A stretch of DNA of 64,000 bases from Acidiferrobacter thiooxydans (lineage in GTDB: Bacteria; Pseudomonadota; Gammaproteobacteria; Acidiferrobacterales; Acidiferrobacteraceae). The position numbers and the translations under genes are program-made. Each line of letters opens with the position of its first letter. Within the stretch, counting starts at the first letter, position 1. Shown here in pieces: positions 31,147-40,276 of the stretch. The notes under the pieces were generated by a model. That model saw nothing but the letters and a program-made list of their open reading frames with translations, did no database searches and was not told where the DNA came from. The DNA is taken from assembly GCF_003333315.1 (NCBI RefSeq), contig NZ_PSYR01000001.1:1266501-1330500 (forward strand), read 5' to 3'.

Positions 31147-31228
31147 TGGCATGGAGATTGCTAAACCCTGGGTGCAGGGATTTTTTGAGGATGACATGGC
31201 TTAGGGTTGCATCGATCGAGAAGGCGTA

Positions 31229-31350
31229 ACGGATTCTAGGGTTCCAGCCGCGTGCGGTGTTCGGTCCGAGAGAATCCGCCCCGCGATGTGCGGGGTACAC
31301 GGAGGGATAAAAACCCGGGAGGCAGCATGTTGCCGTCCCGGGTTTTTTTT
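31229..31350 (+). ncRNA. Guanidine-I (ykkC) riboswitch
   Basis: The leader carries the ykkC-class hallmarks in order: CTAGGGTTCC (31236-31245), the GGTCCGAGAG block (31263-31272), a helix with loop (CCGCCCCGCGATGTGCGGGG), then ACACGGAGGGATAAAA, followed by the CCCGGGAGG segment that enters a terminator hairpin. This class binds free guanidinium and turns on export or carboxylation genes. Here it precedes an ABC-transporter/DUF1989/carboxylase operon, a known target type. Boundaries are approximate. Confidence 0.93.
31312..31350 (+). terminator. Riboswitch-controlled intrinsic terminator
   Basis: CCCGGGA (31314-31320) pairs with TCCCGGG (31336-31342), extended inside by GGCA/TGCC, and is followed by T8 (31343-31350). 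The 5' arm is part of the conserved riboswitch core, so guanidinium binding should block hairpin formation and allow read-through into the operon. Confidence 0.92.
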
Positions 31351-31379
31351 GGTTTGGGCAAAAATTGCGAGGGGATGAT

Positions 31380-32360
31380 ATGCACACGGTGAAGAAGCTT
31401 CTGGTGGCCGCGGGTTTTGTGGTCTGCGCGCAGTTGGGTCTCATGACGCAGGCCAGCGCGCGTATCACGCTCGGGCTGTCGGATTGGCCGGGGTGGGTGG
31501 CGTGGTATGTGGCGCAACACAACGGCTATCTGAAGAAGTACGGGGCGCATGTGCGGCTGGTGTGGTTTCCGAGCTATATGACCTCGGTCGAGGCGCTGTC
31601 GGCCGGTCGCATAGACGCCAACTGCCAGGCGCTGATCGATACCATCGCGCCGATCGTGAAGAAGGTGCCGCTCAAGGTGATCCTGGTCACCGACAACTCC
31701 GCTGGCAACGACGCCTTGATGGTGAACAACTCCATCCATTCGTTCGCGGGATTGAAGGGGAAGTCGATTGCCGTCGAAATGAATTCGATCGAGGAGTACC
31801 TCGATGTGACGGCCCTTCAGGAGCATCACATGAGCGCCGCCGACGTGCATTTCATCAACATGTCGACCGGTGATTCCGCCGCTGCGCTCATCACCGGACG
31901 TGTGGCCGCAGCCGGGGTGTGGAATCCGTGGATCCAGAGGATCGAGGCGCGGCACGCCGGACATGCGCTCTTTACGAGCGCCCAGGCCCCGGGACTCATT
32001 CCCGACCTCGTGGTCGCCCGCGCTAGCGTCGTCGCCGCCCACCGAAAGGATTTCGTGGGGCTCGCCAAGGCCTGGTTTGCGACCGTGCGCTTCATTAAGG
32101 CCCACCCCCGCAAGGCGGCGGCGATCATGGCCCCGCATGTGGATCTCACGCCCGCGGTCTATGCCGCAAGCCTGTCTGGCACCAGGCTTTTCGGAAAACA
32201 CCTGAATCACATTGCCATGAATCCCGGTCCATCGAGTGCCTCGCTCTATAACAGCACCGTCCACACCGGGCGTTTCCTGGAGCAGGTGAAGATGGTCAAG
32301 GCGATCCCCAACCCGCGTACCTTTATCGACGCGGGTATCGTGGATCAGGCGGGGCGGTGA
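31380..32360 (+). CDS. ABC transporter substrate-binding protein (NMT1/SsuA type), guanidine operon
   Basis: Periplasmic binding protein of 326 aa. Signal peptide (LLVAAGFVVCAQLGLMTQASA), then an NMT1/taurine-type fold: LGLSDWPGWVAWYVAQHNGY, GLKGKSIAVE and the AAGVWNPWIQRIE segment. These proteins bind small nitrogen or sulfur compounds. Regulation by a guanidine riboswitch makes guanidine or a derivative the likely ligand. ATG 31380 has GAGGGG upstream. Stop overlaps the permease start (TGATG). Confidence 0.9.
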   Translation: MHTVKKLLVAAGFVVCAQLGLMTQASARITLGLSDWPGWVAWYVAQHNGYLKKYGAHVRLVWFPSYMTSVEALSAGRIDANCQALIDTIAPIVKKVPLKVILVTDNSAGNDALMVNNSIHSFAGLKGKSIAVEMNSIEEYLDVTALQEHHMSAADVHFINMSTGDSAAALITGRVAAAGVWNPWIQRIEARHAGHALFTSAQAPGLIPDLVVARASVVAAHRKDFVGLAKAWFATVRFIKAHPRKAAAIMAPHVDLTPAVYAASLSGTRLFGKHLNHIAMNPGPSSASLYNSTVHTGRFLEQVKMVKAIPNPRTFIDAGIVDQAGR

Positions 32361-33220
32361 TGGGCGCCGTGACCGCAAGGACCCACGGGACATCCAGCGT
32401 CGGCGGCCGCAAGGCGGCCGCGCAGCGCACCCGGGTGCGTGCCTGGTTTTCACGCATACGCGCACCGATCCCAAGGGCGCTGTATGTGGGTCTTGCGGTC
32501 GCGGGGTTTTTGCTGCCGCTCGCCTTCTGGCAGGCGCTGTGTGCGTGGCATCTCGTAGGGGCGCTTTTTCTGCCGTCGCCGGCCGATGTGTGGATGTCGC
32601 TGCGCCATTGGTATGCAAGCGGGCTTTTGCACGATACCGGCATCAGCATCTATCGCGTGGTCGCGGGCTTTGTGTTGGCGGCCTTGATCGGGGTGCCGCT
32701 TGGGCTTTTCATCGGCGCCTACAAGTGGTGTGAGGCGCTCTTGCAGCCGATCAACGACTTCGTGCGCTACATGCCGGCCTCGGCCTTCATACCGCTCGTC
32801 ATCCTGTGGGTGGGCATAGGCGAGGGATCGAAGATCGCCATCATCTTCATAGGGGTCGTGTTCCAGATCGTGGTGATGGTCGCCGATGCCGTGCGCAAGC
32901 TCCCGGACCGCTATCTGGAGGCCGCCTATACCATGGGGGCGCGCCCGGGGGAGACCATGAAGCTTGTCGTGTGGCGCGGCACATGGCCGCAGATCGTCGA
33001 CATCCTGCGTATCAACATGGGTTGGGCCTGGACCTATCTGGTGGTGGCCGAGATGGTGGCCGCCGACAGCGGCCTTGGGTTTGCCATCCTTCAGGCGCAA
33101 CGCTTCCTTGATACCGCGAAGATCTTCGTCGGGATCATCGTCATAGGTCTCATAGGGCTTGCCTTCGATCTCATGTTTCGTGCGCTGCACAAGCAGCTTT
33201 TTCCCTGGTACCGGCCATGA
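32360..33220 (+). CDS. ABC transporter permease (SsuC/TauC type), guanidine operon
   Basis: A 286-aa inner-membrane permease with about six helices and the EAA-loop region (YLEAAYTMGARPGETMKLVV), preceded by VRYMPASAFIPLVILWVGIG typical of the nitrate/sulfonate/taurine permease family. The N-terminal 40 residues are basic and cytoplasmic. ATG 32360 overlaps the upstream stop; GTG 32357 is an alternative. Translationally coupled to its ATPase by ATGA. Confidence 0.9.
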   Translation: MGAVTARTHGTSSVGGRKAAAQRTRVRAWFSRIRAPIPRALYVGLAVAGFLLPLAFWQALCAWHLVGALFLPSPADVWMSLRHWYASGLLHDTGISIYRVVAGFVLAALIGVPLGLFIGAYKWCEALLQPINDFVRYMPASAFIPLVILWVGIGEGSKIAIIFIGVVFQIVVMVADAVRKLPDRYLEAAYTMGARPGETMKLVVWRGTWPQIVDILRINMGWAWTYLVVAEMVAADSGLGFAILQAQRFLDTAKIFVGIIVIGLIGLAFDLMFRALHKQLFPWYRP

Positions 33221-34086
33221 GCGCGCCGCGTGTCAGTGTGGAGGGCGTGGGCCGGGACTATGAGGGCCGGGACGGTGTCCCGTTCCCGGTCCTGAAGGGT
33301 CTCGACATGGTGGCGTCCGACCATGAGTTCGTGGCCATCGTCGGGGCCTCGGGGTGTGGCAAGTCCACGCTCTTACGGCTCGTCGCCGGGCTCGATGAGG
33401 TCACCGAGGGGGTGATCCGGGTGGACGGACGTCCCGTCACGGGGCCTGGGCCGGATCGCGGGATGGTATTCCAGCAATCGACCCTGTTTCCGTGGCTCAC
33501 GGTCTGGCAGAACCTGCGTTTCCCGCGCGGCCTTGCGGTCCACGCCGAGGCCACCAGCCGCGAGGTGTCGGAGTACCTCTCGCGAAGCGAGGCCCTGCTC
33601 AACATGATGGGTCTTGCGCGCGTCCGCGACAGCTACCCAAACCAGTTGAGCGGCGGCATGCAGCAGCGCGTCAATATTGCGCGCGCGCTGGTGGCCAACC
33701 CGGCGGTGCTGCTGATGGACGAGCCCTTCGGGGCGCTCGACGCGCAGACCCGCGAGACCATGCATGACCTCGTGCTGCATCTGTTCGCCGCCGAGAAGAC
33801 CACGGCCTTGTTCGTGACCCATGACGTCGAGGAGGCGATCTATCTCGCGGACCGGGTGATCGTGCTGGCCCCCAACCCCGGGCGCGTGGACTCCGTGCAC
33901 AGCATCCCCTGGGGGCGCGCGCGCACCCAGGATCTCAAGCTCGATGGCGCGTTCGTGAGACTGAAAGGCGAGATCCTGGCGCGCATCCGCGCCACCACCG
34001 CGGTCCATGCCGATCGCGAATTATTGGAAAGTATGACGGCGCGCACGCGCGCATCGTCGCTTGCAGAGGAGAAAGGAAAGTCATGA
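33217..34086 (+). CDS. ABC transporter ATP-binding protein (SsuB/TauB type), guanidine operon
   Basis: A 289-aa ATPase with Walker A GASGCGKST, Q-loop FQQSTLFPWLTV, signature LSGGMQQR, Walker B VLLMDEPFGALD and H-loop VTHDVEEA. It energises uptake through the adjacent permease. The C-terminal ~40 residues extend beyond the cassette. GAGGAGAAAGGAAAG near its end serves the next gene, which overlaps by 4 bp. Confidence 0.93.
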   Translation: MSAPRVSVEGVGRDYEGRDGVPFPVLKGLDMVASDHEFVAIVGASGCGKSTLLRLVAGLDEVTEGVIRVDGRPVTGPGPDRGMVFQQSTLFPWLTVWQNLRFPRGLAVHAEATSREVSEYLSRSEALLNMMGLARVRDSYPNQLSGGMQQRVNIARALVANPAVLLMDEPFGALDAQTRETMHDLVLHLFAAEKTTALFVTHDVEEAIYLADRVIVLAPNPGRVDSVHSIPWGRARTQDLKLDGAFVRLKGEILARIRATTAVHADRELLESMTARTRASSLAEEKGKS

Positions 34087-34814
34087 AGGAACGGGAAACA
34101 AGCGAACGGACCGTACTTTGGCAGGAGCATGTGCCCGGGGGATGCCACGCCTCGTTTCGGCTAGGGCGCGGCCAGGGCCTGCGGCTTACAGCGCTCGCGC
34201 CCAAGGCCAATGCCTCGGTGCTGCTCTTTAATGACGACGACCGCAGCGAGCGCTACAACATGGCCGACACCCTGAAGGCCCAGCATACCGCGGCACTCGG
34301 CGCCGGGCATGTCCTCATGTCGGATATGGGGCGGGCGCTGGCGGCGATCTGCGAAGAGAGCGTGAGCGACCATGATCCGATCTGCGGGGCCTCCAGCCGC
34401 GCAGACATCGAGCGGTGCTTTGGCGCGCGCCGCTTCGAGCATGCGCGCAACGCCATGCACCGCAGCGGCCAGGAGGGCCTTTTGATCGAGCTCGCCAAGT
34501 GGGGCCTCGGTAAGGAGGATCTGGTGGCGCCGATCAATTTCTTTAGCGCGCTTGCGATCGACGACGAGGGCCGCGTGGCGTTGCGTGGCGATGGCGTCGA
34601 TTGCGGCGATTTCGTGGAGTGGACGGCGGTCTTGAATCTCCTGTGTGTAATATCGGCGGCCCCCCATCCCTTGGCCGCCCCCGGCACCTATGCCCCGGCC
34701 GACCTGCGCGTCATAGCCTACGCCCAAGGCGGCGACACCGGCGCAAGCGTCGCGCGATGCGCGGAGAACGCGCGCGCCTTCATGAACAGCCACCGTTATC
34801 TCGGAGATTGCTGA
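34083..34814 (+). CDS. Urea-carboxylase-associated protein 1 (DUF1989; carboxyguanidine deiminase type)
   Basis: One of two DUF1989 subunits that in characterised guanidine pathways form carboxyguanidine deiminase (CgdAB), converting carboxyguanidine to allophanate and ammonia. The 243-aa protein has [20 protein letters not shown], the metal-site region [32 protein letters not shown] and the [10 protein letters not shown] strand, as in UAAP1. The following gene is its partner. Cytoplasmic. The TGATG overlap shows tight coupling. Confidence 0.88.
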
Positions 34815-35482
34815 TGCCAAAGCCCATATTGCAGGAAAGCGCCCGCGACCCGGCCGACGCCCTGTGGGATGTCGTATGCCCGGCGGGCGAGCCGTGGATG
34901 GGGGAGGTGCTTGCCGGCCAGACCGTGCGCATCGTCGACCTCATGGGCAACCAGGCGGTCGATACGCTTTTTTATAACCGGCATGACCGTCGCGAGCGCT
35001 ACAGCGCGCAGGCCACCATCGTCGCCCAAAGGGCCCTCTATCTTACGACCGGCTCGGTATTGATGTCGTCGGAGGGGCGGCCCATGCTGACTATCGTCGC
35101 CGATACCTGCGGGCGCCACGATACCCTGGGCGGGGCCTGTTCCGCGGAGAGCAACACGGTCCGCTATGGTCATGACAAGGGATATATGCACAGCTGCCGG
35201 GACAATTTCCTGCAGGCCTCGCACCACTGCGCATGCGGCCAGCGTCTGGGCCTTGGCAAGCGCGACCTCGCTTCCAACATCAATTTCTTCATGAATGTCC
35301 CGGTAGAGGGTCGCGCATTGCGGTTCGCAGACGGGGTCTCGGCTCCCGGAAAATATGTCGAGATGCGCGCCTGCCAGGATGTGGTGATCCTTATTTCGAA
35401 TTGCCCGCAATTGAACAATCCCTGCAACGCCTATGATCCGACCCCGATTCGCATCATGGCCTGGGGGGCGGCGGAGGGTTGA
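34814..35482 (+). CDS. Urea-carboxylase-associated protein 2 (DUF1989; carboxyguanidine deiminase type)
   Basis: The second DUF1989 subunit, 222 aa. It has the family's zinc-type motif [20 protein letters not shown], then [30 protein letters not shown] and [20 protein letters not shown]-like sequence at the end. The metal-binding Cys/His set looks complete. It should assemble with the preceding subunit. A 63-bp gap separates it from the carboxylase-like gene. Confidence 0.9.
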
Positions 35483-35545
35483 TCGGCATGGGGACGACCC
35501 CGTGGCCTATGAATTTTGCGGGACGGCCCGCCGATGCGAGGTGTC

Positions 35546-38500
35546 ATGTTAAAGACCGTATGGGTGGCCGATTCCGGAGTGGGTGCTACGCGCGTGAGAC
35601 AAACGCTTGAGCGTCTGGGGATCGCCATGCGCTGTGCGCCGCCTGTGATCGTAGAAGGGGCGGAGGTGCGCGCGATCACCGCCCTGGCGGCCGCCGCCGG
35701 GGCCGATGTCGTCCATCCCGGATATGGCGTCCGCGCCCGCGATGCGCAGCTCGCGCGCGCGCTCGCAGGCTCCGGGATCGCCTTTGCCGGGGCGCGCGCC
35801 GACGACATCGAGGCGTTCTCGGACCCCGGGCGGGCGCGCGCGCTCGCTTGCGAGGCCGATCTGCCGCTGCTTGCGAGGAGCCGTCCCCTGGAGGATCTTG
35901 CGGATATCCTGGCGGTGGCGGCGACGATCGGCTACCCGGTGGCGCTGTGCTGCGAGAGCGCCCTGTGGGAGCGGCGCTGTGCGCACCCCGAGGCCGTGCG
36001 TGCGGCCTGGGAGCAGTGGCGGCGATCGCCGCCTCCCGGCCTGGGGGCGCTGTGTGTGGAAAGGCGTCTGGCCCAGGCCCGTTGCCTGGAGGTCCCGGTG
36101 TGGGGCGATGGGCGCGGCGCGGTACGGGCCTTGGGCGTGCACGATGTAAGCCTGCGGCGCGACGGCCGGGTGCTGCTGGAAGAGGCGCCCGCCGGGGGAT
36201 TGGCGTCCGGGGAATGCCAGCAGCTCATGGATAGGGCGGTGCGCCTGGCGCGCCACGTGCGCTATCGATCCGCGGGCGTGGTGCGTTTCATCTATGATGA
36301 GCGCGAGCGCGTGTCCTATTTCGTAGCCCTGGACGCGGCGCTCGGGGCCGCGCACGCGCTCGCCTCGATGGTCATCGGGAGCGATATCGTCGCGTGGACG
36401 TTGCGACTCGCGGCCGGGGAAGACGGTGTGTTGGACGACGATCCGCGAGGCGCCGTCGGGCATGCGATCCTGGCGCATGTACGCGCCGAGGATTGGGCGC
36501 GCGGACTGGCACGTTCCGCAGGACGCGTGACCACGGTGTCGTGGCCACCGGGGGCAGAGATCGCGGCCGCCATCGCCGCGGGATCGGAGGTGGCGCTGGC
36601 GGGCGATGGCGAGCTTGCGCATATCGGTGTGGCGGCGGATGATCGCAGGCAGGCATGGCAGGCGCTCGATGAGGCGCTGGCGCAGACCGTGGTGCGCGGG
36701 GTCGAGACCAATAGGGAGTGGCTGCGCGCCTGGGCGCAGGATCCGCGGGTGCGCGCGGGCCGTCCGGATGTCGATATCCTGGCATCCGACCGGCGGCCGG
36801 CCCCGGTGGTGGAGGTCCTGAAGGGGGGGGCGCAGACCACCCTCCAGGACTGGCCGGGACGGCTCGGGTATTGGCAGGTGGGCGTGCCGCCGTCGGGGCC
36901 CATGGATGCGCTCGCGCATCGCTACGCCAACGGGCTTGTGGGCAACGATCCGGGGGCCGTGGTTTTGGAGATGACGCTGGCCGGCCCGCATCTCAAATTC
37001 CATGCGCCGGCGCTGATCGCGCTCACCGGCGCGCCATTTTCGGCACGGCTCGACGGACGCGTACTGCCGATGTGGCAGGTATGTCGGGTGGAGGCCGGCA
37101 GCGAGTTGCTGTGCGGCACGGTGCGTACCGCCGGGGCGCGCGCCTATCTGGCCGTGCAGGGAGGCTTTGTCGCCGATTGCTATCTCGGCAGTGCGGCGAC
37201 GTTTGCCCTCGGCGGTTTTGGTGGTCACGAGGGGCGCGCCCTGAAGGCGGGTGACCGCCTGACCATAACCGCCATCCGGGACGATAGCGTAGTCGGTCGG
37301 CCATTGTCGCGGCGTTTGCGGCCGCGCTACGAACGCCACTGGACGCTCGCGGTCTTGTATGGGCCGCACGGCGCCGATGATTTCTTTACCACAGACGACA
37401 TTGAGGCCTTTTTTGCCGCCGATTGGCAGGTCCACCCGCAGTCCAATCGAACCGGTGTGCGCTTGATCGGTCCGCGTCCGCAGTGGGCGCGCCCCGATGG
37501 CGGAGAGGCCGGTCTCCACCCTTCGAATATTCATGATAATGCCTACGCCATAGGCGCGATCGACTATACCGGCGACATGCCGGTGATCCTGGGGCCGGAT
37601 GGACCGAGTCTCGGCGGCTTCGTGTGCCCGGCGGTGGTGGTGTCCGCGGACCTTTGGAAGCTCGGGCAGTTGCGTCCGGGGGATACGGTGCGTTTTGTGC
37701 GTGTCAGTCTCGCGGCGGCGCGTGCCTTGCACCGGGATCAGGAGCAGGCATTGGATCTGCGTCCGCCGCCACTCAGGCCGGGCCTGCCGGTCATGGCCCA
37801 TGAAGCGGATGCAAGGGAGGCGATCATCGCGCGCAGCGACGGGTCGCAAGCAGGGGTTGCGGTCGTGTATCGACGCGCCGGCGATGCCAATGTCCTGATC
37901 GAGTACGGGCCACCGATCCTCGATATCGGTCTGCGCCTGCGCGTCCATGCGCTCATGGAGTGGCTGCAGTCGCGCCGCCACGAGCGCTTGAACGACGCCG
38001 TGATCGACCTCACGCCCGGCATACGCTCGTTGCAGGTCCATTACCGCCCCGATCGGCTCTCGCAGGCGGCGCTGGTGGCCGTGCTCGGCGAGGCCGAGGC
38101 CGACCTCGGGGACTTGCGCGAGGCCTGTGTGGCCTCGCGCATCGTGCATCTGCCGCTCGCCTGGGATGACAGTCAGACGCGGCTTGCCACCGCCCGTTAT
38201 CAGCAGCTCGTGCGTCCCGATGCCCCCTGGTGCCCGCGCAACATCGAATTCATTCGCCGCATCAACGGGCTAGACAGCGAGGAGGCGGTGCGCGATATCG
38301 TCTTGGCCGCCGAGTATCTGGTGCTCGGCCTGGGGGATGTGTATCTCGGGGCACCGGTCGCGACCCCGGTCGATCCCCGCCACCGGCTGGTCACCACCAA
38401 GTACAACCCGGCGCGTACCTGGACCCCGGAGAATGCGGTGGGCATAGGCGGGGCCTATCTGTGCATTTATGGCATGGAGGGCCCGGGGGGTTATCAGTTC

Positions 38501-38824
38501 GTGGGGCGCACGCTGCAGATGTGGAACCGGGGGCCTGCGGTCGCGCCGTTTGTAGACGGTGCCCCGTGGCTGTTGCGGTTCTTCGATCGCATCCGGTTTT
38601 TCCCGGTGAGCGAGGAGCAGCTATTGGCGATGCGCGCGGATTTCGCGCAAGGTCGCTTGCCGCTACGTATCGAGGACGGGCGCTTCTCATGGGCCGAGTA
38701 CCAGCGGTTCCTGGAGGCCGAGAGGCCCGGCATCGAGGCCTTCAAGGCGCGTCAACAGGCGGCGTTCGTGCGCGAGCGCGAGTCCTGGGCGCGCAGCGCC
38801 GATGCCGCCGCCTGCGGGGCTTAG
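35546..38824 (+). CDS. Urea/guanidine-carboxylase-like protein lacking biotin carboxylase active site and biotin carrier domain
   Basis: The 1092-aa protein aligns with urea/guanidine carboxylase (normally ~1200 aa). The carboxyltransferase half is well conserved: KipA/AHS2-type domain from about 420 ([20 protein letters not shown]), KipI/AHS1-type domain from about 780, and the late motif [20 protein letters not shown]. The N-terminal biotin-carboxylase domain is degenerate. The Gly-rich ATP loop after GYPV is replaced ([13 protein letters not shown], Lys to C135). The catalytic strand EMNTRLQVEH becomes [10 protein letters not shown] (261-270), losing Glu, Asn, Arg, Gln and Glu; the KxxEEAP Lys is also gone. 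The protein stops at [13 protein letters not shown] where a carrier domain with an AMKM-type biotinyl-Lys should begin. Start from GAGG before ATG 35546. Biotin-dependent carboxylation by this chain alone seems impossible. Confidence 0.88.
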
Positions 38825-38968
38825 CCTCGCGCCTGCGCGCTCTCGGGGCGTGGCCTGTTTGGTGGAGGCGCGGACGTCGTATTAAGCTTGCGCTCGGTTG
38901 CATCCGCGGCGTCCTCGCTAGGGTCGCCTGGGTGTCGTCTTGCGGAAAGACCGCGGGGCCGTTGCGGA

Positions 38969-40276
38969 ATGGGGATGATGGCGAGCGGAGATCTGGGCGG
39001 CCTTGCGCAATCGCCCGAGCGGGTGCTGTATTTCGTGCTGCTGCAGCTGGTGGCGATCATCGCCTTGGCGCGGGCGCTGGGGTGGCTTGCGAGAAAGGTG
39101 GGCCAGCCGCGCTCGGTGGGCGAGATCATCGCCGGCGTGCTGCTCGGTCCCTCCCTGTTCGGGCGCCTCGATCCCGGATTGTTTCATTATGTCTTTGCGC
39201 GCATTACGCCCCTGCCGCTTGTGATCATGAGCCAGATCGGGCTTACCTTGCTCATGTTTCAAATCGGCATGGGCTTTGATTTCTCACACCTCAAGGAGGC
39301 GGCGAACGGGCGCGCGGCGGCGGCCACGGCGGCGGGCTCGATCGCCCTGCCGTTTGTGCTAGGCGTGGTCCTGGGAATCGCCTCCCAGCCCTATCTGGCG
39401 CGCGGGATCCCGGTCGTCCCCTATAGCCTTTTTATCGGCACCGCGTTTGCCATTACCGCCGTGCCCGTGCTCGGCCGGATCCTGGTGGAGTACGGTCTGG
39501 CGCGCACCCGCCTAGGGGCGATCGCCATCAGCGCCGCGGCCGCCAATGACGTGGCCGGTTGGCTCTTGCTGCTGGCGGTGGCGGCATTTGCGAGCGCGCG
39601 GTTCTCGGCGGCGGCCATGGCCTGGCGCCTTGCGTTTCTCGGGCTTTATCTCGCCGTGGCCTTGGCGGTGGTGAAACCGCTCGTGCACCGCATGCTGGCG
39701 CGCCTGTCGTGGCCCGAGGGGCCGGGGCTGCCGCCGGATGTGCTGGCGGCGACGCTGCTTTTGGTGTTCATATCGGGCATGATGACCTACGAGATCGGTA
39801 TATTTACCATCTTCGGCGGTTTCGTGATGGGCGTGATCGTCAACGCCAACACCGAGTTCGTGACCCGGTTTCAGCAAACGGTCGGCGATTTCATCTTCGT
39901 GTTCTTCCTGCCGATCTTTTTTACCTACGCCGGTCTGCGTGCCGATCTCGGCGGCATCGACAATGGCATGCTGTGGCTATGGTGCGGGGTCATTGTGCTC
40001 GCCGCCACGGTGGGCAAGGGCGCCGGGGCCTATGCCGGTGCGCGCCTCGGGGGACTCGACGCCATGAGCGCGCTGGTCATGGGGGCGCTGATGAATACCC
40101 GCGGGCTCATGGAACTGATCGTCATCAATATCGGGTACAGCGCCGGATTCATACCGCATATCGTCTATACGCTGCTCGTGGTCATGGCGATCGTGACCAC
40201 GATGACCACAGGGCCTGCGTTACGCGTGTCCTTGCCGCGGCTTGGCCATGTGATCCCAAGAGACATAGACGCCTAG
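38969..40276 (+). CDS. Kef-type (CPA2) cation:proton antiporter
   Basis: Monovalent-cation/H+ antiporter of 435 aa with about twelve membrane helices. Family stretches: VGQPRSVGEIIAGVLLGPSL, QIGLTLLMFQIGMGFD, FAITAVPVLGRILVEY, AAAANDVAGWLLL (the ND ion-binding region) and MGALMNTRGLMELIVINIGY. No RCK/TrkA-N regulatory domain is attached, unlike KefB/C. It follows the guanidine operon after 144 bp; a shared role is not shown. Confidence 0.9.
   Translation: MGMMASGDLGGLAQSPERVLYFVLLQLVAIIALARALGWLARKVGQPRSVGEIIAGVLLGPSLFGRLDPGLFHYVFARITPLPLVIMSQIGLTLLMFQIGMGFDFSHLKEAANGRAAAATAAGSIALPFVLGVVLGIASQPYLARGIPVVPYSLFIGTAFAITAVPVLGRILVEYGLARTRLGAIAISAAAANDVAGWLLLLAVAAFASARFSAAAMAWRLAFLGLYLAVALAVVKPLVHRMLARLSWPEGPGLPPDVLAATLLLVFISGMMTYEIGIFTIFGGFVMGVIVNANTEFVTRFQQTVGDFIFVFFLPIFFTYAGLRADLGGIDNGMLWLWCGVIVLAATVGKGAGAYAGARLGGLDAMSALVMGALMNTRGLMELIVINIGYSAGFIPHIVYTLLVVMAIVTTMTTGPALRVSLPRLGHVIPRDIDA

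Follow-up and report, generated by a model that had tools for sequence, protein, structure and literature searches.

How can a carboxylase still act on its substrate once it has lost the parts that load and carry the carboxyl group? This question is raised by a gene of Acidiferrobacter thiooxydans (assembly GCF_003333315.1, contig NZ_PSYR01000001.1), located in a stretch of 64,000 nucleotides (positions 1,266,501 to 1,330,500, forward strand) which was analysed as a whole and is referred to below as the window; coordinates without a prefix count from its first letter. The gene lies in a guanidine operon and encodes a relative of urea and guanidine carboxylases whose carboxyltransferase (CT) half is strongly conserved, whose biotin carboxylase (BC) domain appears to be dead and whose biotin carboxyl carrier protein (BCCP) domain is missing (the pseudo-BC protein). 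We give somewhat better than even chances to the interpretation that this protein is a guanidine carboxyltransferase which is fed carboxybiotin in trans, with AccB as the most likely carrier.

A lost donor half

The gene forms a single open frame (35546-38824, + strand; 1092 codons, 1092 aa), as the sequence-only reading of this DNA had stated. Pfam and NCBIfam matches, alignment with AccC and the conservation of CT columns together led to its assignment as a putative pseudo-BC guanidine carboxyltransferase without BCCP. The pseudo-BC domain (residues 1-413; 35546-36784, +) is predicted to keep the fold and scores low in Pfam (Biotin_carb_N 34.5, CPSase_L_D2 78.8 and Biotin_carb_C 51.8 bits), while CT domains AB and CD (residues 414-1000; 36785-38545, +), defined by Pfam and column conservation, score 322.9 (CT_A_B) and 131.6 bits (CT_C_D). 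The tail past the CT (residues 1001-1092 plus stop; 38546-38824, +) was delimited by comparison with canonical homologues, the complete ones extending approximately 90-107 aa beyond the end of the window protein, BCCP included. Biotin_lipoyl was absent from the protein in the Pfam scan, and the score with the urea carboxylase equivalog TIGR02712 (1254.4 bits; profile positions 62-1112 of 1201) is below the cut-off of 1303.85.

The BC domain was compared at 20 positions of E. coli AccC, whose choice and catalytic roles we take as given, with the AccC and the PycA-type protein of the window genome aligned as controls. E201 is the sole position kept; I287 is Val, and the other 18 are changed or deleted. 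The changes (AccC numbering) include K116P, K159C (window residue 135), G164L with deletion of the following three residues, H209C, Q233R, H236G, K238V (the Lys before EEAP), E276R, R338H and, in the N-x-R-x-QVE region, E288A, N290D, R292A, Q294G, V295A and E296A. The domain has thus lost the Lys of the ATP loop, some of its glycine loop, the two metal Glu residues, the N-x-R-x-QVE series and Arg 338; the losses of R167 and H236 are hardly informative, since canonical rows vary there too (R167 is Ile, H236 often Asn). Both controls retain the 20 positions with two exceptions: AccC has Lys in place of R167, and the PycA type has Met in place of I287. Because they otherwise align intact, the window residues must be regarded as lost and not as displaced through misalignment. 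Judged by its residues, the BC domain is dead, which bears out the earlier claim, including that of Cys at residue 135.

These losses stand out against a canonical set of 82 relatives, from which pseudo-BC rows and their copies, the contig-cut L069, L099 and L123, and frames shorter than 1100 aa were excluded. All 13 tested catalytic columns, as well as an MK motif in the last part of the protein, are kept in 82/82. A column was called near-invariant when at least 97 percent of the set have the same residue in it; the window keeps 55 of the 104 such columns of the BC half, and 8 more are deleted. No Biotin_lipoyl match occurs near the gene, and a six-frame search of the whole genome gave six, all elsewhere; this rules out a BCCP frame just downstream and leaves standing the claim that the biotinyl domain is missing. 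Sequencing error or an assembly artefact was excluded by three complete orthologues with identical losses.

An AlphaFold model of the window protein (mean pLDDT 79.2, pTM 0.68; BC region mostly 80-94) is matched best by 5i8i and 3va7, with BC chains next. The underlying alignment had 27 rows, 23 of them canonical, so that the favourable score of the pseudo-BC region derives in part from these and is weak evidence when taken alone. BC chains take up the VIA-align structure list, which is of little use for judging the CT.

A conserved, probable guanidine-type carboxyltransferase

The window protein keeps 184 of the 185 near-invariant CT columns (CT-AB 91/92, CT-CD 93/93), in agreement with the strong conservation noted earlier, and the five orthologues from the genus keep 183 or 184. 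Its residues D673, D931 and K952 (the last in a TKYNP motif) align with D1330, D1584 and K1605 of the Kluyveromyces lactis enzyme, and the Asp of the first column is also present in 81 of the 82 canonical rows. In PMC11410670 the Asp at 1330 is described as guanidine-type and that at 1584 as a conserved Asp, and K1605 is given as the likely general base in PMC5770610. The window CT is therefore probably a guanidine-type carboxyltransferase, an activity predicted from these columns.

The sequence-only reading proposed that selection has kept the protein for another task and named three options. One was a biotin-independent enzyme resembling the 5-oxoprolinase PxpBC, which in the present context would mean that the CT now activates guanidine in some other way. 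The homology of the CT to PxpC and PxpB, which themselves lack BC and BCCP, and the loss of both biotin parts fit this proposal. However, E. coli PxpC/PxpB have a different residue or a gap at 108 of the near-invariant CT columns, and in 107 of these the window retains the residue of the biotin enzymes, which rules out a drift toward PxpBC; the CT-only protein of locus L213, described below, does so in 104/108. The PxpC and PxpB equivalogs are not reached (NF045499, 165.4 vs 500; TIGR00370, 33.7 vs 145.55), and no PxpA-like protein was found among the seven proteins scanned (operon and downstream neighbour). We therefore consider a biotin-independent CT distinctly unlikely.

Another option was a protein that is no longer an enzyme: a guanidine-binding scaffold, a sensor, a buffer or an inhibitor built on the CT. 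KipA and KipI, which belong to this CT family, have regulatory roles, and a dead BC without BCCP could be read in this way. The catalytic Lys and all 93 near-invariant CT-CD columns are nevertheless kept, the CT is unrelaxed and the remaining genes of the pathway are present, which makes a non-enzymatic role very unlikely. Given the retained CT columns, "another task" is not the best reading; the third option, a carboxyltransferase served by separate subunits of the AccB/AccC type, fits best of the three and is also supported by the CT-only operons presented below.

Distribution, selection and origin within the genus

The pseudo-BC gene was found in 6 of 14 genomes of the genus: that of the window and, with the percent identity in brackets, G005 (91 percent), G002 (83), G013 (76), G011 (75) and G003 (86, CT only). 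Complete open frames, all lacking BCCP, are present in G005, G002 and G013; the G011 orthologue is truncated at its 5' end by the contig, and in that of G003 the BC domain is interrupted by a run of N. As far as the assemblies reach, the five congeners share the apparently dead BC domain and the missing BCCP, so a search for homologues with both losses, as had been suggested, was successful.

The ratio of nonsynonymous to synonymous substitution rates (dN/dS) was calculated by NG86; in the wider pairs dS is near or above 1, and the ratios there are rough. For the BC part it is 0.22-0.41 in all 15 pairs of the six pseudo-BC genes, and bootstrapping of six pairs gave 95 percent upper bounds of 0.39-0.52 for BC and 0.12-0.17 for CT. 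In 13 canonical pairs both halves are constrained alike (BC 0.055-0.162, CT 0.042-0.150), and the CT of the pseudo-BC proteins falls within the canonical range. The pseudo-BC domain is thus relaxed approximately threefold relative to the CT, yet under purifying selection: its dN/dS is well below 1 and the orthologues have no internal stops, which upholds the earlier claim that selection maintains the protein. The complete orthologues show at most one internal gap column. None of the outcomes that had been named earlier as refuting was observed: the catalytic residues are not displaced, a BCCP frame is absent nearby and dN/dS of the BC lies far below 1.

The same data bear on slow gene decay, in which the BC drifts after its loss and the whole gene is to follow. 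The threefold higher dN/dS of the BC would suit this scenario, as would the apparently broken pathway remnants of two further congeners, G012 and G004. Against it stand the loss common to genomes down to 75-76 percent identity, the upper bounds quoted above for 6 of the 15 pairs, and the frames free of internal stops and nearly free of gaps. We regard decay as highly improbable.

An allophanate hydrolase above the cut-off was found in 6/6 genomes with the pseudo-BC gene vs 2/8 of the others in the genus (one-sided chance 28/3003, calculated by hand and ignoring kinship and missing pieces of drafts). The two hydrolase-positive genomes without the gene are G012 and G004. In G012 a 167-aa frame (L176:6585-7088) directly before the hydrolase has a C-terminal BCCP of the canonical guanidine carboxylase kind (98 aa aligned with G017, 72 percent identical), and CT and BC matches on this stretch are only at chance level; this remnant reads as a sign of an older complete enzyme. 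In G004 (L177, G004:C10) the hydrolase is split into two frames (hidden Markov model positions 2-420 and 430-563) and is possibly decaying, and no match to the CT of the pseudo-BC gene was found there.

G017, from the same family as the window genome, has a canonical operon in which a complete carboxylase adjoins the hydrolase. A CT tree groups the pseudo-BC clade with two canonical rows of this family (SH-aLRT 99), which indicates that the pseudo-BC form was derived from a complete carboxylase; the tree is a quick search of 36 rows with SH-aLRT as its only support measure, 9 rows have unusual composition, and 15 of the 38 canonical rows chosen were left out because their start motif was not found.

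CT-only proteins in another gammaproteobacterial family

The CT half was also used to search a sample of the class (matches in 33 of 369 genomes) and one of the phylum (46 of 398). BC and BCCP motifs are present in all 53 complete frames from these samples, some of which overlap the 82 canonical relatives; set apart from the 53 were L193, which is genome G174 itself, and L209 and L210, which are broken or cut pieces. Both reduced forms, pseudo-BC and CT-only, are rare.

G174 carries a frame of just 668 aa, encoding a CT-only protein of 666 aa, in the order Guanidine-I riboswitch, CgdA, CgdB (both by eye), CT-only protein, allophanate hydrolase. Four further genomes (G462, G464, G467 and G458) have the corresponding CT-only gene (76-77 percent identity) in a similar operon, so that in all five genomes a CT-only protein of 661-666 aa is encoded together with CgdAB and allophanate hydrolase in a guanidine operon. 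In the family of G174, 7 of 53 genomes matched; besides these five, there are G430, with a complete carboxylase in place of the CT-only gene, and G431, with a fragment that contains stops. Of the 185 near-invariant CT columns, 180-182 are kept in the CT-only proteins, as is the guanidine-type Asp, and these proteins occupy a branch of the CT tree separate from that of the pseudo-BC proteins.

In each of the five genomes, rated 85-100 percent complete (G174 100 percent), exactly one Biotin_carb_C gene was found, located approximately 1.1-1.3 kb from an AccB-like Biotin_lipoyl match. In G174 this BC and the adjoining carrier exceed the AccC and AccB equivalog cut-offs and, by a motif rule which we assume to distinguish biotin-type from lipoyl-type domains, AccB alone of its six Biotin_lipoyl matches is biotin-type, three being lipoyl-type and two weak. 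Among the matches read in G464 there was no further biotin-type motif, the motif of the AccB-like frame itself lying outside that reading, and two Biotin_lipoyl frames on contig C181 of this genome fit neither motif. Since the sole BC found in the CT-only genomes adjoins AccB, AccB is the natural candidate for the carrier. The CT-only operons provide independent, sequence-based support for the reading of a carboxyltransferase fed in trans.

Other genes were observed in guanidine operons. In L213:12081-13956 and L239:2041-3913 a Guanidine-II riboswitch precedes two uncharacterised genes, encoding a protein of the fatty-acid-desaturase type and a TIM barrel of the xylose-isomerase type (L239 by eye). 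The desaturase-type protein of L213 is weakly similar to the arginine hydroxylase GntB, and the pair is perhaps a route for substituted guanidines. Genes for a type III glutamine synthetase and a creatininase-family protein lie beside the CT-only gene in L213:13965-16122 and, by eye, in L235-L238.

Source of the carboxyl group

The window genome contains three Biotin_carb_C genes by six-frame search: AccC, the PycA type and the pseudo-BC gene itself. AccC is over the TIGR00514 and AccB over the TIGR00531 cut-off. The PycA-type BC (477 aa; C2:577474) adjoins a 619-aa PycB-type protein (C2:575371) which exceeds the cut-offs of the pyruvate carboxylase subunit B and OadA models and has an EAMKM motif. 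The six Biotin_lipoyl matches are AccB, the PycB type, two within one 542-aa lipoyl-type frame and two weak matches that lack a biotin motif; the biotin-type motif occurs only in AccB and at the C-terminus of PycB. These six-frame profile searches revealed no dedicated spare BC or BCCP: the search for an unlinked BC-BCCP gene, as had been suggested, gave the AccC/AccB and PycA/PycB pairs only.

It might still be supposed that the genome encodes elsewhere a dedicated BC and BCCP which evade the models, as profile searches may miss very divergent proteins. The inventory accounts for all 6 Biotin_lipoyl and 3 Biotin_carb_C matches and rules out an additional gene recognisable by these models; to a hidden donor pair we assign only a minimal probability.

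PycB is a possible carrier in the window genome. In this alternative the two-subunit pyruvate carboxylase would be the donor, PycA loading the BCCP of PycB, which then visits the CT of the window protein; the adjacency of the two genes, the EAMKM motif and the finding that both proteins are matched in the five pseudo-BC genus-mates speak for it. The PycB carrier is, however, tethered to a CT of its own, and in the CT-only parallel 5/5 genomes have one BC, beside AccB, with no other BC source seen. Feeding by PycB is therefore unlikely, although it deserves to be kept in mind.

Several observations weigh against a CT fed in trans by AccB. The near-invariant CT column at P611 is lost in 6/6 pseudo-BC proteins, parts of the CT active site have pLDDT below 50 in the AlphaFold model, and CT conservation taken alone is compatible with an alternative donor. 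With the PycA/PycB-type pair also present, the inventory leaves the donor unsettled in the window genome. Among the five CT-only genomes, four are drafts with a rated completeness of 85-96 percent, and three have another possible biotin carrier: in G462 a full-length OadA of 605 aa that passes the TIGR01108 cut-off, in G458 an OadA relative of 608 aa (by eye) and in G467 a frame of 109 aa whose biotin domain is of the OadA type. Moreover, the co-occurrence with allophanate hydrolase is confounded by kinship and by incomplete genomes, and our literature search, which covered mostly papers available without subscription, found no published urea- or guanidine-type CT using AccB.

Even so, the CT has been kept nearly letter for letter in guanidine-responsive operons while the donor half was lost twice, and carboxybiotin supplied in trans is the simplest account of this pattern. 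The following course of events may be envisaged. Guanidine would enter through the ABC transporter and turn on the operon through two riboswitches. AccC, with ATP and bicarbonate, would carboxylate the biotin on AccB, as for acetyl-CoA carboxylase, and carboxybiotin-AccB would visit the CT site of the window protein instead of the acetyl-CoA carboxyltransferase. The carboxyl group would then pass to guanidine, with K952 as base and D673 and D931 acting on the substrate; CgdAB would convert carboxyguanidine to allophanate, and the unlinked allophanate hydrolase would complete the pathway. The pseudo-BC domain may have been retained as a folded structural or docking part; that it docks or pairs with AccC is a guess.

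We see an even chance that guanidine assimilation has been plugged into acetyl-CoA carboxylase at least twice, with a urea-type CT unrelated to AccA/AccD taking carboxybiotin from AccB, once after complete loss of BC and BCCP and once with the dead BC kept as a docking or BC-pairing module. If this is true, one biotin carrier feeds both fat synthesis and nitrogen assimilation, and the two compete. Urea and guanidine carboxylases are known as single-chain, self-sufficient enzymes, from which a conserved form without the donor half departs. Either a urea-type CT can use a foreign carrier, implying modularity and a link between guanidine and lipids, or it works without biotin, and both would be new to us. 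The best-hit annotation "urea carboxylase" hides members of the family that are not self-sufficient.

The guanidine operon and its surroundings

The operon begins with a Guanidine-I riboswitch (31225-31323, +; Rfam RF00442, 86.4 bits, gathering 63), followed on the same strand by genes for an SsuA/NMT1-like ABC transporter substrate-binding protein (31365-32360; Pfam NMT1), a permease (32357-33220; PF00528) and an ATPase (33217-34086; PF00005). The substrate-binding protein is related to a putative urea substrate-binding protein model and remains under both cut-offs (TIGR01728 157.9 bits, TIGR03427 136.9); the transporter may carry guanidine. Next come the two DUF1989 subunits of the putative carboxyguanidine deiminase: UAAP1 (34083-34814, +; TIGR03425 254.9 bits, cut-off 205.95), which we take to be CgdA, and UAAP2, or CgdB (34814-35482, +; TIGR03424 323 bits, cut-off 284.7), the start of which was set from the L117 orthologue, the frame staying open further upstream.

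A Guanidine-II (mini-ykkC) riboswitch (35486-35530, +; Rfam RF01068, 38.1 bits, gathering 32) separates cgdB from the carboxylase gene and ends 15 bases short of the start codon of the latter. It lies at the same position in L117, L118, L119 and L121, as well as in the canonical L122 and L123, and directly before the pseudo-BC gene in 5/5 genomes having that stretch assembled. According to PMC12508155 and PMC12186494, a tandem layout with a class II switch ahead of the carboxylase gene is known from other guanidine operons. The intact guanidine-riboswitch operon described earlier is correct as regards the riboswitch at its head, CgdA and CgdB, with two amendments: there is a second riboswitch, and the whole pathway is not encoded there, since the allophanate hydrolase is unlinked (G000:C2:365584-367254; 773 bits vs cut-off 511.05, with both domains and the amidase motifs).

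The next gene downstream encodes a CPA2-type cation:proton antiporter (38888-40276), which also adjoins the pseudo-BC gene in G005, G002 and G013 (by eye). In G011 a UreG-like open reading frame (L120:3276-3953; by eye) is located between the pseudo-BC gene and the allophanate hydrolase.

Comparison with known systems

Shared use of one donor has precedents, as one BC-BCCP subunit serves several CTs in acyl-CoA carboxylases. A survey of biotin carboxylase evolution (PMC3199775) describes acyl-CoA carboxylases with BC-BCCP and CT on different chains and gives their CT as non-homologous to the urea-type CT; for the latter type its section 8 names fused forms, two-gene homologues and complete urea carboxylases only. 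Our literature search likewise revealed neither a degenerate or shared BC nor a CT-only form in the urea/guanidine carboxylase family.

The 5-oxoprolinase subunits PxpB/PxpC (KipI/KipA) resemble the window protein in having a homologous CT and no biotin parts, but they share only 77 of 167 aligned near-invariant CT columns (18 more are gapped), in contrast to 184/185 in the window.

A third reduced form, CT-BCCP without BC, was observed in Nitrosomonas europaea ATCC 25978 (L054:1172-3532) and in a Nitrosospira metagenome-assembled genome (L044:108-2381). In L054 its gene lies behind a Guanidine-I riboswitch and CgdAB-like open reading frames, and is divergent from a complete carboxylase having a Guanidine-I riboswitch of its own. 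Like the window protein, both have no working BC domain and keep the CT with the guanidine-type Asp; unlike it, they retain the BCCP and have a complete carboxylase gene on the same contig.

With complete guanidine carboxylase (TIGR02712; K. lactis 3VA7/5I8I) the window protein shares the BC-CT order, the CT residues and the guanidine-type Asp, and its locus resembles the operons of this enzyme in having Guanidine-I and Guanidine-II riboswitches and CgdAB. It differs in the absence of BCCP, the loss of the BC catalytic residues and a TIGR02712 score below the cut-off. Finally, it resembles the CT-only protein of G174, G462, G464, G467 and G458 in having a CT without predicted BC activity or BCCP, accompanied by CgdAB and allophanate hydrolase; the CT-only form has no BC at all, whereas the window protein keeps it as a pseudo-domain.

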